Source: Gemmatimonadota bacterium
Lineage (GTDB): Bacteria; GCA-2686955
NCBI GenBank assembly: GCA_002686955.1
Contig: NYZA01000254.1
Span: 1 to 10,561 of the forward strand
Direction: 5' to 3'
Length of the DNA stretch: 10,561 nucleotides
Shown: positions 1 through 10,561 of the stretch, one piece after another
Layout: every line of letters starts with the position of its first letter
Numbering within the stretch: the stretch's first letter is position 1
Notes under the pieces: generated by a model
The model's input: the letters and a program-made list of their open reading frames with translations, nothing else
Told to the model about the DNA's origin: nothing
Database searches by the model: none
Position numbers and translations under genes: made by a program

Positions 1-34
1 CAACAACCTTGGCGGCACCGCCCTTACAGTTGTC

Positions 35-54
35 GCCCCTCGGGGCAGTTTTTT
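35..54 (+). terminator. Possible rho-independent terminator, plus strand
   Basis: A short GC hairpin (GCCCC facing GGGGC, with at most a four-base loop) is followed two bases later by six T residues at 49-54. It would end transcription entering from the left edge of the window and so protect the convergent SLATT gene. The stem is short. The hairpin also lies inside the stretch that would be the body of an attC site read on the minus strand, so it may be attC structure instead. Confidence 0.35.
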
Positions 55-81
55 CTCTTGACTACCGGTGGGCTCATAAGT

Positions 82-88
82 GTTAGGC
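82..88 (-). other. attC-like core site (R'' box) at end of cassette
   Basis: On the minus strand this reads GCCTAAC, an exact match to the integron attC consensus RYYYAAC. It contains the TAA stop of the SLATT gene, which is common where a gene cassette runs into its attC. The core plus the following bases (GCCTAACACTTAT) matches, in inverted orientation and with one extra base, the site at 3080-3093 (GCCTAACAACTTAT). A one-base offset between arms recalls the unpaired base typical of attC stems. The matching GTTRRRY end is not visible and would lie left of position 1, so a complete attC cannot be shown here. Confidence 0.5.
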
Positions 89-517
89 CTCACTTTCGCT
101 ATCCTCCTTCGCCGAGTACTGCCGCCACACGGAGTTCTGTGCCGAAATGAGATTCTCGACCCGCATCGCAAGCACTGGAAGCGGCTCGTCCACCGAATAG
201 ACTCCACCACGCGAAAGATACATGTATTTCTCGTGCTTCAGTGATTCGCATGTGCCTCTGTAGCCGATCCAGTTCTCTTGATACTTTCCAAGACTCAGCA
301 TTCCAGTTGCTACGGCCACAAACACACCCAACAGGCCAACTCCGAATCGGGCCCACTCGTATTCGCCGGTGTACGCAGACAGAAGTGGTATTGAGGCGGA
401 AGCGATCAGCGCAGAGATCTGCAGCAGCTTGAATGCCCTCTGGTTTCTACCACTGGCCTCATCATACCATGAGATCTGGTCATCCAATCGTTCCTCTACG
501 TACCTGTCCGCATCCAC
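83..517 (-). CDS. SLATT/DUF4231 two-helix membrane protein, predicted defence effector
   Basis: This 144-residue protein has the hallmarks of the DUF4231/SLATT family. An N-terminal segment carries LDDQISWYD (residues 11-19). Two hydrophobic helices follow at about 30-49 and 57-77, then the conserved KYQENWIGYRGTCESLKHEKYMY block (78-100). SLATT proteins are two-helix membrane proteins that accompany nucleotide-generating or nucleotide-sensing partners in bacterial conflict systems. They are predicted to form pores or disrupt the membrane when triggered, but that activity is not shown by this sequence. The start is GTG at 517, supported by GGGGAGG six bases upstream. The stop codon lies inside an attC-like core. 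Its likely partner is the TIR gene upstream on the same strand, now separated from it by an IS256-type element. The gene looks intact. The family call is firm and the role is inferred. Confidence 0.85.
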   Translation of the reverse strand: MDADRYVEERLDDQISWYDEASGRNQRAFKLLQISALIASASIPLLSAYTGEYEWARFGVGLLGVFVAVATGMLSLGKYQENWIGYRGTCESLKHEKYMYLSRGGVYSVDEPLPVLAMRVENLISAQNSVWRQYSAKEDSESEA

Positions 518-613
518 GCCAACCCTCCCCTCACGTTTTTCCGTTCAGACGCCATTTGCGGTGTTGCATGGCACACAGTTTCGCTTGTTTAGATTCTTGA
601 GTCCGCCCTTCGC

Positions 614-622
614 CCGGATCGC
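614..622. repeat. Left target-site duplication of the IS element
   Basis: CCGGATCGC occurs directly before the left inverted repeat and again at 2049-2057 after the right one. Nine bases is a normal duplication length for IS256-family insertions. The copies are identical, which points to a fairly recent insertion. Confidence 0.85.
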
Positions 623-670
623 GAGATATTGTCAAAAATTGTGGCTCGGGGGGGCCGGGTTGAGGGCGTG
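623..670 (+). repeat. Left terminal inverted repeat of IS256-type element
   Basis: It begins GAGATATTGTCAAAA and runs through a seven-G block to GGGTTGAGGGCGTG. It pairs with 1999-2046 with four mismatches over 48 bases. It is the presumed transposase binding end. Confidence 0.9.
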
Positions 671-744
671 AAAAGAGGCGGCGTATCCTTCGGGTACCAA
701 GAAAACCCGAGGCCCGGCGGAAGCCGCAGAAGGAGACGCCACCC

Positions 745-1994
745 ATGCTTAGAATCGCGGAAACCGAGACCGGTGTCGAGACCGAAGATGGCCGAAGCCT
801 GGACGAAATCGTGAAAGCTGGAGCCCAGCGCATGCTGATGAGCGCGCTGCAGGCCGAGGTCGGCGAGTACCTCGCCGCACACGAGGGCGAGCGGGATGAG
901 CGGGGCCACAGCGTCGTGACCCGCAACGGCGCCAGCCGCCCGCGCAAGCTCTCGACCGGCGCCGGGACACTCACGGTGCGCACGCCTCGAGTTCGCGATC
1001 GTGGGACGGACACGGAAGGGCAGCGGCGCAAATTCACGAGCAAGATTCTGCCTCCCTACATGCGGAAGACTCCGAAGGTCGCGGAAGTGATTCCGATTCT
1101 ATACCTTCGCGGGCTTTCGACGGGGGACTTCAAGCCCGCTCTCGCTGCGCTTTTGGGGAACGAGGGGGCGCTGGCCTTTCTCCGACCACGATCACCCGGC
1201 TCACGAGCGAATGGCGCCAGCATTACGAGGCATTCTGCAAGCGCGACCTGAGCAAGAACGAGTTCGTATACGTCTGGGCGGACGGCATCCACTTCCGCAT
1301 TCGCCTGGAGGAGGACCGGCTCTGCACATTGGTGCTCATGGGGGTCCGTGCCGACGGGACCAAGGAGCTGATCGCGGTCGCCGACGGCTACCGAGAGAGC
1401 ACGAAGAGCTGGTCGGAGGTACAGCGTGATCTCAGCCGCCGCGGGCTGCAGGCGCCGGTCCTGGCGATCGGGGACGGCGCCCTCGGATTCTGGGCCGCCG
1501 TGCGCGACGTGTGGCCCGAAACCAGCGAGCAGCGGTGCTGGGTCCACAAGCTGGCCAACGTCCTGGACAAGCTGCCCAAACGAATCCAGCCCAGAGCGAA
1601 GCGAGCGCTCCACGAGATCATGAATGCGGAGTCCAAGAAGGACGCCCTCGATGTCGTGCAGGAGTTCGAGGCGCAGTTCAGCGCCACGTACCCCAAAGCT
1701 GTCGCTTGTCTCCTGAAGGACTCCGATGCCCTGCTCTCGTTCTACGACTTCCCCGCCGATCACTGGCGTCACATTCGAACCACGAACGCCATCGAGTCGA
1801 GCTTCGCCACGGTGCGGCTGAGACAGCGCATTACCAAGGGCGCGGGCACCCGCCTACGAGCTCTGACCATGGCCTTCAAGCTCCTCGAGATGGCACAGAA
1901 ACGATGGCGGAGGATCAATGGCCACTCGCTGCTCGGCGACGTCGTCGAGCGCGTCACCTACGTCGACGGAATCAAACTTGAAGAAGCTGCCTGA
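745..1994 (+). pseudogene. IS256-family (mutator) transposase, split by a frameshift
   Basis: Two plus-strand frames together make a normal-length IS256 transposase of about 416 residues. The first runs from ATG 745 (AGGAGA eight bases upstream) through LDEIVKAGAQRMLMSAL to LAALLGNEG, then reads out of frame and stops at 1251. The second resumes one frame back at about 1168 with GLSPTTITRL and ends at 1994. The DDE residues are present in the second part: D in YVWADGIHF, D in LAIGDGALGFW and E in NAIESSFATVRLRQ, plus the QRCWVHKLANVL motif. The break falls in a run of five G at 1164-1168. One more G would restore GNEGGAGLSP, so a single-base deletion (or a sequencing error) is the simplest explanation. 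Programmed -1 slippage at the G run is possible but is not usual for this family. No neighbouring gene depends on it. Confidence 0.88.
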
Positions 1995-1998
1995 TTCT

Positions 1999-2046
1999 CA
2001 TGCCCTCAACCCAGCCCCCCCGATCCACAACTTTTGACAATATCTC
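1999..2046 (-). repeat. Right terminal inverted repeat of IS256-type element
   Basis: The reverse complement of 623-670 with four substitutions, it ends TTTTGACAATATCTC. It starts five bases after the transposase stop. Confidence 0.9.
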
Positions 2047-2048
2047 AT

Positions 2049-2057
2049 CCGGATCGC
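2049..2057. repeat. Right target-site duplication of the IS element
   Basis: CCGGATCGC, identical to 614-622. Confidence 0.85.
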
Positions 2058-2169
2058 TTCCTGCCTCGATTTTCTGAGTCACGCGGCACGTCGCCCTTCA
2101 TATTTCCGTGGCATGTCTCGCACTCCGAAACGTCTCCTTTGCCCATCCCGTCCACTACGCGACTACCAC

Positions 2170-3033
2170 TTACAGACTCTGCCACATTGTTGCGTAGAAC
2201 ACGGCGAAAAGAAGCATTGCGAGGACCATCACGATGAACGCATTGCGAATCCTGTAACGCCCTGCTGTCAGTCCTCCTAGTGCGAATGAAGAGCCGGGCA
2301 GCCAAACCCAAGACATCTTGATCATGGCCGTTTCGCTCATGCTATTGAAATCCCAAAGATAGATGACACCAATCTGCGCCATCGAATAGGCTAGCGTTGC
2401 CCAGTAGAATCCACGCAACTGTTTTCGCACCAGCTCCTTCGCGCCTGCCCGCGAGGCCATAATGTAGTTAATTTGAACGGTGGTCAGCCGCGGCGTATGT
2501 TCATGTTCTCTCTTTAGATTCTCGTTTGCTTCATCTAGATCCTCACCGAACAGTATGTAGCTGCCGTTGTGGTTCTTGTTCACCCACTCACTCGCGCGCA
2601 CCTGGAGTCGCGAATGAAACCTGCGCCAGGCTAAGTCAGCATTGAGAGTGTCAATCAGATCATCAAGGGACTCCGCAGGTTCCCGATCTTGAGTGAATCT
2701 TAGCCAGTTTGTTATTGCCACCGCGTTGCTGCTGTTGAGAGAATGATCGAATTCCTTGTACTGCACCGGTACAATTCGCTTATTGGACTCCTCAGCGAGA
2801 CTCAATTCAGCTCCGCACGTCTGTGACCCGAAATATTCATCGGACAGAACGCAAACGAATGCAGACGCCCCTTCGATAGCCTGCGCTATCTCGTTCCACC
2901 AATTAGACGAGTAGGGAATATCCTCCCAGTCAATCCATACCTCCAGACCGCGGTCATGCAGCTTTGAACTTAGCTTCTTGACGAAGGTCGCATCCCGGCG
3001 AGAGTAGGATATGAGCACATCGCTTAGTACCAC
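2170..3033 (-). CDS. TIR-domain protein with C-terminal transmembrane helices
   Basis: This is a 287-residue protein. Residues 4-95 form a bacterial TIR domain: DVLISYSRRD at the first strand, GLEVWIDWEDI, then AFVCVLSDEYFGSQTCGAEL. E76 in CGAEL is the expected catalytic glutamate of NAD-consuming TIR enzymes. Residues about 130-205 (DLAWRRFHSRLQVRASEW, then LFGEDLDEANENL and YIMASRAGAK) match the linker that follows TIR domains in many bacterial TIR-WD40 and TIR-TPR proteins. Here the linker leads into hydrophobic helices at about 209-227, 240-258 and 264-283 instead of repeats. The protein is therefore probably membrane-anchored. Known bacterial TIR proteins cleave NAD or make cyclic ADP-ribose signals during phage defence, and that role is inferred here. 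GTG 3033 is the chosen start, with AAGGAG ten bases upstream. The ATG at 3043 opens only a five-codon frame. Its likely partner is the SLATT gene downstream on the same strand. GC is visibly lower than in the lpx genes. Confidence 0.85.
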   Translation of the reverse strand: MVLSDVLISYSRRDATFVKKLSSKLHDRGLEVWIDWEDIPYSSNWWNEIAQAIEGASAFVCVLSDEYFGSQTCGAELSLAEESNKRIVPVQYKEFDHSLNSSNAVAITNWLRFTQDREPAESLDDLIDTLNADLAWRRFHSRLQVRASEWVNKNHNGSYILFGEDLDEANENLKREHEHTPRLTTVQINYIMASRAGAKELVRKQLRGFYWATLAYSMAQIGVIYLWDFNSMSETAMIKMSWVWLPGSSFALGGLTAGRYRIRNAFIVMVLAMLLFAVFYATMWQSL

Positions 3034-3079
3034 GCCTGCATATCTCCTTGCGGTTTCTCTACTTCATTTCCTTCTTCGA

Positions 3080-3086
3080 GCCTAAC
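3080..3086 (-). other. Integron-type core site upstream of the TIR gene (R' box, GTTAGGC)
   Basis: On the minus strand this reads GTTAGGC, an exact GTTRRRY core. Integron integrases cut after the G, so a cassette would begin TTAGGC, 52 bases before the TIR start codon. It forms an inverted repeat with the core at the SLATT stop, and the match extends outward (AATAAGTTGTTAGGC here against CATAAGTGTTAGGC there). A weak partner core lies 72 bases into the flank (GCTGAAC on the minus strand at 3145-3151, one base off RYYYAAC), which would make a degenerate attC of usual size. Otherwise this may be the edge of an attI site. Confidence 0.5.
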
Positions 3087-3738
3087 AACTTATTACCAAC
3101 CCTCCCACAACCCCCGGCCACCCCGCACGCTCCGCTCGCCCAGTGGTTCAGCACTCAGAGTGCTTGCAGCAGTGGTGGCCGATGCGGAAACGACCGGCGT
3201 GGCTGGATCTTAGCAGAATCCGCCGCGGTCTTGGCCGGGGGAAGTCCGCCGAAGCGACGGCAGGTATATCCCCGGAGATCCGTGGATATCCGGAAGTGCG
3301 GCAATCGTGGATATCGGGTATTTGGGGCCGTAGATACCGGGAATCAGGGGGCTGCGGGTGGCGAGCGCGAGGCGGATTGCACGCGCCTCTGGGTGGTCCA
3401 CATCTTGCTCTCGCGGGGCGGTCATGAGATCAACAGATGACGGCAGGGGCTGGAGTTTCCGGAGACAGTGGAGTTCGCCGCCACCTGGCAGGCACAAGGG
3501 ACAGGCCGCCGTGGCATCGGGATCGCGACGCGGGCGCAACCGTGCCGAGACCCGCGCGGCTTTGCAGGAACCCTCCATCCCGCGGGTCAACTGTCTTCCC
3601 TCGAGCGGTCAGCGAGCGACCCGGACCGAGCCTCTGCTCACAGCTCCGGAGGCGACGCGGATTCGGCAAGCCGGCGGTGCAATTTCCGTCTACTTCAACC
3701 AATCTCGTTCCGTGGCCACGGCGAGCTCCCCCGCAGCC
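3087..3738. other. Gene-poor stretch between cassette boundary and integrase remnant
   Basis: I find no convincing gene here. Open frames exist on both strands, but their products (rich in R, G, A and P) resemble no family I know. Two features stand out. There is a small hairpin, AGCAC-TCAGA-GTGCT, at 3150-3164. There are also spaced near-repeats of GTGGATATCCGG at 3282-3293, 3307-3318 and, degenerate, 3330-3341, with a weaker copy near 3262-3275. In an integron this interval would hold attI and the cassette promoter, or decayed cassettes. None of these can be assigned with confidence. Confidence 0.5.
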
Positions 3739-3903
3739 GTCAACGACTGGACTGGCGCGGCGGCTCGCGAGTCGGGGACCGCTCTGCTGGAAATGCGTCG
3801 CCTTCTGGGTATAGAGCGCTATTCGCGAAGCACAATGCGAAACTACATGGGTTGGGCAGCGCGATTCCTGGACTACCTCGCCCCGGGGCGAGCGACACTT
3901 CCG
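3739..3903 (+). pseudogene. Fragment of a tyrosine recombinase, integron-integrase-like N-terminal domain
   Basis: A short plus-strand stretch translates to NDW near 3742-3750, then LLEMRRLLGIERYSRSTMRN and YMGWAARFLDYLA (about 3784-3894). This is the pattern of the SAM-like DNA-binding domain that opens integron and related integrases (L..E.R....YS..T...Y..W..RF..F). The catalytic domain with its R...H..R...Y residues is missing. After about 3900 the frame runs into an interspersed repeat and then across the lpxA antisense strand, so this is a remnant. It points away from the TIR-SLATT cassette, as intI does relative to its cassettes. The 600-base gap to the core site at 3080 is longer than usual. 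A XerC-like or phage integrase fragment is the alternative. Confidence 0.45.
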
Positions 3904-3910
3904 CGAGGAG

Positions 3911-3955
3911 GCGTCATCCTGGCCAGAGCCGGGATCCAGGATTGCTCGATTCGCC
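3911..3955. repeat. Interspersed palindromic repeat of the VIPAKAGIQ-translating type
   Basis: The sequence around CGTCATCCTGGCC and GGGATCCAGGATT reads VILARAGIQDCSIRQDS in one frame. This closely resembles the intergenic repeats of many proteobacterial genomes (CGTCATTCCCGCG..., wrongly translated as VIPAKAGIQ). The core can fold, with CCTGGC facing GCCGGG. It directly follows the integrase fragment and probably marks where that gene was lost. Only one copy is visible in this window. Confidence 0.5.
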
Positions 3956-4041
3956 AGGACAGCGACGAAAGGAACAGGTCCAACAAAGCAGAACCAAGGC
4001 TCTTCCCGACGCCTATCCGCGAGCTATTCCCGCGCGGCCCC

Positions 4042-4841: not shown

Positions 4842-6140
4842 TCACTTGGAAGCTCCTATCGAATTCGGTCGATCCACCACCATGGCTTGCATCTCCGTCT
4901 CGCAGACGACCACCCCTTGGACGGTCGCTCGGGCGCTGATCCGGGAGAGGCGCTGCAGTCGTCTCACGAAGACCTCGAGTCGAAGCTGGTCCCCCGGAAC
5001 GACCGTCTTTCGGAATCGGGCGTTTTCGACCGCCGCAAGATAGACCATCTTTCCCTCGAAGTCTTCCCGACTTCTGTAGAGGAGGTAGGCGGCGGCCTGC
5101 GCCAAGGCTTCGAGAATGAGTACGCCGGGCATGACCGGCTGTCCAGGAAAATGCCCTTCGAAGTACGGCTCGCACGCGGTGACGTTCTTGATCGCGACCA
5201 TTCGCTTGCCGATCTCGATCTCTACGATGCGGTCGACCAGCAAGAAGGGGTATCGGTGAGGCAGAATCTCCATCACTCGCTGAATGTCATAGAGTCCCCC
5301 CTCTTCGACGGCTTTTTCTCGAACCAACTCCTTCGCGAAGCTCACATTCGCCGCGTGGCCGGCGCGGATCGCTATCACGTGCCCGAGGATCCTGCCCGGC
5401 ACCAATGAGAGGTCGCCGATCAGGTCGAGCATCTTGTGGCGAGCGGGCTCATCGGGAAAGCGCAACGGCTCTTCGTTCAGCGTGCCCTCTTTGCTGAAAA
5501 CCACCGCGTTTTCGAGGCTGCCACCTTGGATCAGCCCCTGCGCGCGGAGATGCTCGATTTCGTGATCGAAGCAGAAAGTGCGGGCGGGTGCCACCCGATC
5601 CCGAAAGTGGCTCAAGGGCTCCGAGACCGTGCCCATGCCGAGCTGCGGATGCTCGAAATCGATGTTGAAGGTGACCCGGAACTCGTCGGGAGAGGGCAGG
5701 TAGACGAGTTCGGCTCCCCCCTCTCGGAAATGCACCGGTCCGTTTAGCCGAAAGAGCTCGGGGGAAGCGCTCTGAGGCTCGACCCCGGCACGATCGATCG
5801 CCTCGACCACGGGCAGCGCGCTGCCGTCCAATGCCGGTGGTTCGGGTCCATCGAGCTCGATGAGCGCATTGTCGACATCGCAGCCGCGCAGCGCCGCTAG
5901 CACGTGCTCCACCGTGTGCACCTCGACACCATCTTCGGACGCGAGATTCGTCCCTCGCGGAGTGGTGTGCACCCGTTCGATTCTGCCCGGGATCTCGGGG
6001 CGGCCCTCGACATCGCTCCGGACGAAGATGCGCCCCGTCGATTCGGCCGCGGGGAGCAGTCGCATCTTCACCGTCCGGCCGGTGTGCAGACCCACTCCCT
6101 CGAACTCGATCGGGGCGGCGATTGTGCACTGACGTCTCAT
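4842..6140 (-). CDS. lpxC/fabZ: Bifunctional LpxC deacetylase / FabZ dehydratase fusion
   Basis: One 432-residue protein joins two enzymes. Residues 1-275 are LpxC, the zinc deacetylase that commits UDP-acyl-GlcNAc to lipid A. It shows GVGLHTG (15-21), TVEHVLAAL with E78 and ligand H79, DGSALP (105-110), [11 protein letters not shown] with ligands H235 and D239, and GHAANVSF with H262. Residues about 284-432 are FabZ, the 3-hydroxyacyl-ACP dehydratase of fatty acid synthesis, with [26 protein letters not shown] (H330) and LILEALAQ (E344). All key residues of both halves are present. LpxC and FabZ draw on the same 3-hydroxyacyl-ACP pool, so fusion ties their amounts together. The fusion is known from Bacteroidota, Chlorobi and related phyla. 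The start is ATG 6140. It lies 40 bases after lpxD and 11 before lpxA. Confidence 0.96.
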
Positions 6141-10325: not shown

Positions 10326-10427
10326 ATGTGCGCCGTCACTCGATGCATCGCTGTCGCGCTCCTGATGACCACGATCTTCGGTTGCTCCAAGGACGAGATC
10401 TTGGCCCCCAACCAACCCGTGGATTAG
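10326..10427 (+). CDS. Very small lipoprotein
   Basis: A 33-residue protein, MCAVTRCIAVALLMTTIFGC then SKDEILAPNQPVD. It has a positively charged start, a hydrophobic stretch and a lipobox TIFGC, so signal peptidase II should cut before C20. That leaves a lipid-anchored peptide of only 14 residues. S at +2 favours the outer membrane by E. coli rules. The start is well supported: AAGGAGG at 10313-10319 ends six bases before ATG. The frame is open upstream to 10215, but that part looks like noncoding GC-rich DNA. It resembles other tiny lipoproteins (entericidin or lysis-protein size) only in layout, and I do not recognise a family. It could also be the start of a longer gene broken here. Confidence 0.7.
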   Translation: MCAVTRCIAVALLMTTIFGCSKDEILAPNQPVD

Positions 10428-10468
10428 CCCGCATGTCTCACCAACTTTCTGCTGTGGCGGCACATCTC

Positions 10469-10561
10469 CGCACCCTGGCGGCACTTCCCCCCGTTTCGCT
10501 TTGTGCGACGTGCAACCAGCACGCCTCCGCGCGAAACGGTGCGAAGCACCGCCAGGGCACG
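10469..10561. repeat. Large imperfect inverted repeat with internal hairpins
   Basis: Arms 10469-10499 and 10531-10561 match at 25 of 31 positions as inverted copies (each with CCCTGGCGG and CCGTTTCGC in the same orientation once reversed). The 31-base centre has its own hairpin CGTGC-AACCA-GCACG (10509-10523). The right arm alone folds as CGGTGC-GAA-GCACCG (10537-10551). A second partial copy of the arm motif, TGGCGGCAC, is at 10454-10462. No T-run follows before the window ends, so it is not a clear terminator. It may be a REP/BIME-like repeat, the end of a small mobile element or a structured RNA. The window edge may cut it. Confidence 0.6.

Follow-up and report, generated by a model that had tools for sequence, protein, structure and literature searches.

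Results

The TIR-SLATT locus and its insertion sequence

The stretch of DNA analyzed here, referred to as the window, is an entire contig (C254) of 10,561 bases from genome G000, with window base 1 being contig base 1. The genome assembly comprises 4.28 Mb in 270 contigs, is 84.5% complete and has a contamination estimate of 0.9%. The left part of the window carries genes for a TIR and a SLATT protein, which are separated by an insertion sequence (IS) and enclosed by putative integron sequences. The following features were assigned:

1-88, minus strand: attC, R''-side arm only; R'' box GCCTAAC at 88-82; recurs on C71, C198, C232 and G001:C501
83-517, minus strand: SLATT (SLATT_1/DUF4231) protein, 144 aa; NCBIfam SLATT_1 1.6e-34, Pfam DUF4231 1.7e-22
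614-622, no strand: target-site duplication CCGGATCGC, left copy of an exact 9-bp repeat
623-2048, plus strand: IS of the IS256/Mutator type, 1,426 bp; Pfam Transposase_mut 6.9e-14 and 3.4e-35
2049-2057, no strand: target-site duplication CCGGATCGC, right copy of the exact 9-bp repeat
2170-3033, minus strand: TIR protein, 287 aa; Pfam TIR_2 1.6e-25; TIR domain (residues 6-126), linker and C-terminal membrane segment
3080-3086, minus strand: putative cassette start and attI crossover core GTTAGGC; three attI copies diverge here
3087-3348, minus strand: putative attI and leader region; 85% identical to C79:97-361 and inside a 577-bp match of 90% to C265
3655-3894, plus strand: integron-integrase remnant, part of the N-terminal extension and the start of the SAM-like domain; BLASTP 8e-13 to a protein of C58

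The single membrane segment predicted for the TIR protein spans residues 265-283, and hydropathy predicts two for the SLATT protein. PADLOC matches to the TIR protein span the TIR domain only, with the ThsB models being weak (best 2.4e-6), and PADLOC gave no match to the SLATT protein. No ThsA-like gene was found in the cassette, where the partner of the TIR gene is SLATT_1.

The two genes adjoin each other with the IS lying between them. The transposase of the IS is broken in two frames (745-1251 and 1329-1994), and its inverted ends are located at 614-674 and 1995-2052. Both genes have retained an intact reading frame. Without the IS, the gap between the TIR and SLATT genes measures 217 bp, more than is usual in a tight operon. 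The possibility that the insertion point conceals a third gene was dismissed, as the rejoined gap does not contain a convincing open frame. Scattered Cys-x2-Cys codons occur on both sides of the IS (2049-2170 and 518-622), in different frames and without a continuous one; they are perhaps what is left of a decayed small zinc-binding gene.

Further to the right, the translations exhibit one frame (4842-6140) which we take to be an LpxC-FabZ-like fusion, inside a cluster resembling lpxA, lpxD, ompH and bamA. At the far end, bases 10422-10561 are a repeat in common with the ends of contigs C79, C198 and C265. The last 42 bases of the window equal the first 42 of C265, and the two contigs may either adjoin or share a dispersed repeat. 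Other dispersed repeats are also found at contig ends in G000.

Boundaries of the putative cassette

The earlier note had proposed, from the letters of the window, that the TIR-SLATT block is framed like an integron gene cassette, and the motifs behind this proposal were all found as described. The window contains exactly two copies of GTTAGGC, one at 82-88 (+) and one at 3080-3086 (-), which are oriented as would be expected for one cassette. On the coding strand, one copy (3086-3080) precedes the GTG start codon of the TIR gene at 3033 by about 50 bases, while the other, there read as GCCTAAC (88-82), overlaps the end of the SLATT gene and holds its stop codon. The match extends outward as an inverted repeat with a one-base offset (GGTTGGTAATAAGTTGTTAGGC at the right end against GGTGGGCTCATAAGTGTTAGGC, the reverse complement, at the left end). 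Removal of the IS and one target duplication leaves a unit of 1,570 bp, in agreement with the proposed 1.6 kb. A motif scan yielded no core between the two genes; GTTGGGT at 326-332 falls within the SLATT gene. As 0.32 copies of GTTAGGC are expected and two were reached in 7 of 200 shuffles, the motif pair alone is only weakly significant, and the GTTRRRY class is not enriched in the window (seven seen, ten expected). The decisive evidence is the comparative recurrence of both flanks, which break at the cores, and not the motif count.

This recurrence was assessed on other contigs of G000 and on one relative, G001, the sole other genome of the same phylum and family among the genomes compared. 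From base 3084 rightward, the window recurs on C265 (90% over 577 bp and 92% over 111 bp) and on C79 (85% over 265 bp), with about 205 bp of C265 missing from the window copy. The three copies correspond as far as the GTT and continue into unrelated DNA beyond it, which is the signature of an attI site and places attI beside the first cassette. The window copy neighbours the lpxA-type cluster and the C79 copy a tRNA gene; the gene next to the C265 copy presumably encodes a ribosomal-protein-L13-like protein. A search of the attI region for a sigma-70-type promoter gave no match.

The left flank (bases 1-88) recurs on C71 (99% over 86 bp), C198 (98% over 54 bp), C232 (92% over 59 bp) and G001:C501 (84% over 43 bp). 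Each of these five attC arm copies from two genomes, the window included, is preceded by a different gene, and the match ends at the core, which is degenerate on C232 (GAATAAC). As the contig ends at base 1, the L'/R' arm of the window attC is absent from the assembly and its R'' arm is the visible part. A search with the complementary pattern for the missing arm recovered the four arms already known and, apart from these, a single chance match within a coding gene. Rfam gave no attC match in this region of the window, and the arm itself had no match in viral contigs and a match in only one named genome contig. Complete attC sites that fold are present in G001 and, once a group II intron is removed, on C71, where the joined exons form a site of approximately 70 nt folding at -21.9 kcal/mol.

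With both flanks recurring beside other genes and breaking at the cores, the assignment of the TIR-SLATT block as an integron cassette is well supported. Its framing by two cores also stands; the right-hand core (3080-3086) has to be regarded as the attI x attC junction, which lies outside any attC.

An integron cassette begins with bases complementary to the R'' box at its own end. Such complementary ends, with a TTRRRY start and a RYYYAAC end, are present in the window (TTAGGC...GCCTAAC, hence TTAGGC/GCCTAA). Including this one, five cassettes of the two genomes exhibit TTRRRY/RYYYAA ends, the others being an OLD-type (TTAGAC/GTCTAA) and a beta-helix cassette (GTTCGACC/GGTCGAAC) on C71 and two cassettes in G001 (GTTGGCAC/GTGCCAAC and TTCGGCG/CGCCGAA). 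The cassette on C265 starts with TTCGAG, and the last bases visible ahead of the intron end there are CTCGAA.

Integrase remnants and a related integron

The integrase remnant is located on the far side of attI and reads away from it, which is the expected orientation. Its 80 residues share 38% identity over 80 aa with the C58 protein, itself a decayed integrase; the match to Pfam Phage_int_SAM_4 (0.0027) is below the cut-off. The C58 protein in turn matches TIGR02249 (1.5e-23) across the first 117 positions only. Altogether, four integrase remnants were found in G000, namely in the window and on C265, C58 and C12. This 84.5% complete genome yielded no intact integron integrase, and no remnant exceeded the TIGR02249 cut-off. 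As only integrase remnants are present, the locus is referred to as an integron remnant. No attI of the window type was detected with the decayed genes on C58 (L010, 710-1600) and C12 (25495-25650). Two further candidates for an integron integrase, a XerC-like gene on C51 and an integrase of the phage type on C173, were dismissed.

In G001, contig C501 exhibits, in this order, a decayed intI, attI, a cassette encoding 409 aa, a complete attC, a cassette encoding 219 aa and an attC arm of the window family. Its intI includes the N-terminal extension, contains one stop and matches TIGR02249 with 4.3e-58 over positions 1-180, and the complete attC folds as a hairpin (z of about -2 on either strand). 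This is the textbook order of an integron, and it supports the integron reading of the window.

Other cassettes in the genome

Several other cassettes of G000 look like defence genes. Directly at the second attI copy, C265 (L014, 9517-11382) encodes a protein of the PD-Lambda-1 type (DUF4041 and T5orf172; PADLOC 8e-164). An OLD/AriA-like ATPase cassette (AriA 1.5e-21) is found on C71 (L012, 93-2065), and an AbiEii-like nucleotidyltransferase gene (Pfam 3.6e-8) lies by the attC arm with the degenerate core on C232 (L011, 1563-2300), where a possible small partner gene was also seen beside it. The beta-helix cassette on C71 and the small cassette on C198 have no obvious defence role. The defence-like cassettes are consistent with integrons serving as stores of anti-phage systems, as has recently been put forward (PMC12409362).

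Neighbours of SLATT homologues

In a search of 386 genomes, SLATT had four strong homologues, which belong to four families and share 38-44% identity with it (E < 1e-20). Each of them adjoins a TIR or ThsB-type gene:

L041: TIR gene, divergent from the SLATT homologue
L042: TIR gene with membrane segments, upstream of the SLATT homologue on the same strand
L043: ThsB-type gene directly upstream of the SLATT homologue
L044: ThsB-type gene directly downstream of the SLATT homologue

Five weaker matches of this search (E from 1.9e-13 upward) had no detected TIR alongside. A TIR/ThsB gene also adjoins the SLATT homologue in two staphylococcal plasmid records and in three of four inspected phage or satellite records (SN10, Javan277 and IME197); the fourth, Javan199, was left unscored as it has no annotated gene at the expected place. 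A TIR or ThsB neighbour is thus present for nine of the nine scored close homologues, in several cases directly adjacent or overlapping. Such neighbourhoods were previously described for Firmicute phages, with SLATT being predicted to act as a membrane effector regulated by ADPr derivatives (PMC9503650). The homologues of the TIR protein on plasmids are large TIR proteins with no SLATT alongside; near one of them, a gene is annotated as 'integron integrase'.

Discussion

Origin of the locus

The TIR-SLATT pair is very probably a two-gene integron cassette which occupies attI in a chromosomal integron with a decayed integrase gene. It almost certainly stands first among the cassettes of this degenerate integron and was split later by the IS. 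We infer that a circular TIR-SLATT cassette with one attC would have been captured by an integron integrase through recombination of attC with attI at G/TTRRRY, which would make it the first in the array. Truncation of the integrase gene and insertion of the IS256-type IS between TIR and SLATT would have followed, and expression of the cassette presumably proceeds from the attI side.

Two other explanations of the same sequences were considered. The cores might be chance matches, with TIR-SLATT being an ordinary chromosomal defence locus by the lpxA cluster. Variable chromosomal sites do often house defence genes and the motif pair is, by the shuffles given above, only mildly unusual, but chance matches are contradicted by the recurrence of both flanks on other contigs, where other genes are attached and the similarity breaks at the cores, and by the integrase remnant beside the right flank. 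This explanation appears extremely improbable, and only slightly more credit, still very little, is given to the idea that the flanks belong to a repeat dispersed in the genome, such as the end of a transposon, whose own ends would account for the common break points in place of integrase recombination. The copies do lie beside different chromosomal genes, in a genome with other dispersed repeats at its contig ends. Yet the breaks fall on GTTRRRY/RYYYAAC cores, the variable bases match between the two ends of each cassette, the repeat bears integron-integrase sequence and G001 exhibits the full integron order.

The integron remnant is related to two known kinds of locus. It shares with sedentary chromosomal integrons an attI site, ends of the attC type whose cores match, small cassettes that look like defence genes, and an integrase gene across attI from the cassettes. 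G000 differs from these in its decayed integrase, several attI copies, the few cassettes recovered and its rarely sampled lineage. Clusters of attC sites without integrase are known as CALIN (PMC9668308). With these the window shares attC-bearing cassettes and the lack of a working integrase alongside, whereas its contig shows fewer than two attC sites. Since attI and an integrase remnant are recognisable in the window, it represents a decayed integron and not an orphan attC cluster.

Possible function of the TIR-SLATT pair

A Thoeris-like function of the pair appears probable. In the proposed scheme, the TIR protein would probably sense infection and convert NAD+ to a nucleotide signal. This signal would activate the small SLATT membrane protein, which may then permeabilise the membrane and thereby stop phage replication, SLATT replacing ThsA. 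This working model is likely, and rests on the recurrence of the pair and on the published prediction (PMC9503650). Alternatively, both proteins might act independently and share the cassette by chance, for instance if the TIR protein were a stand-alone NAD+-depleting toxin and SLATT unrelated to it. The gap that remains between the genes without the IS would be in agreement with this, as would the larger plasmid TIR homologues that lack SLATT. Independent action is nevertheless considered unlikely, given the TIR or ThsB neighbours of all scored close SLATT homologues, the lack of a core between the two genes and the prediction already made for TIR-SLATT pairs.

As in Thoeris, which consists of the TIR protein ThsB and ThsA, a TIR protein is combined with a separate putative effector, and ThsB-type TIRs adjoin SLATT homologues elsewhere. 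Unlike Thoeris, the window has no ThsA but a small membrane protein as putative effector, without a recognised sensor domain. The pairs of Firmicute phages and satellites (PMC9503650) likewise consist of SLATT_1/DUF4231 adjoining a TIR-type gene. The window differs from them in its TIR_2 protein with a C-terminal membrane segment, which appears not to be of the short ThsB type, and in its location in an integron cassette instead of a prophage.

Integrons as stores of defence systems

Anti-phage systems are stored in sedentary chromosomal integrons (Darracq 2025; Getz 2025; as cited in PMC12409362) and are also carried by mobile integrons (Kieffer 2025; as cited in PMC12409362). Both TIR-SLATT pairs and the carriage of defence genes in integron cassettes have been described before. 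Their combination appears new; TIR-SLATT as integron cargo was not found in the literature searched. The locus extends the storage of anti-phage systems in integrons to an uncultured lineage about which little is known, and adds a compact two-gene candidate of a size suited to a cassette.

What is less ordinary is that a single genome contains four integrase remnants alongside at least three attI copies. These could stem from duplication or from repeated acquisition; an origin from mixed strains is less likely (contamination estimate 0.9%). As several attI copies occur in G000 together with decayed integrases, the genome provides insight into the fate of integrons after the death of the integrase: the cassettes nearest to attI remain, and several of them resemble defence genes. 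It is a tentative and rather doubtful thought that integron platforms of attI and integrase multiplied round the chromosome and lost their integrases, whereby the attI-proximal defence systems would have been frozen as permanent immune genes, including TIR-SLATT with SLATT as a Thoeris-like effector.

Some attC sites of G000 are associated with further elements, which also speak for the integron reading. On C71 (L012), a group II intron (approximately 2062-3970, minus strand; Rfam D1-D4 matches) interrupts the attC at the R' box, upstream of the OLD/AriA-like cassette, and no second copy of this intron-bearing attC was found in G000. On C265 (L014, 11430-12180), a group II intron with a maturase domain borders directly on the R'' of the PD-Lambda-1 cassette, points in the opposite direction and runs off the contig. 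As in these two cases, IIC-attC introns are known to insert into attC at the core, and the same opposite-orientation arrangement has been described for them (PMC7923331). On C198 (L015, 12390-13094), the ends of an IS110-type element (Pfam DEDD_Tnp_IS110, weak at 0.039 on a stretch of 37 aa) flank the attC arm, which is interrupted, and a small membrane-protein gene; IS1111 elements which target attC are known (PMC11187229).
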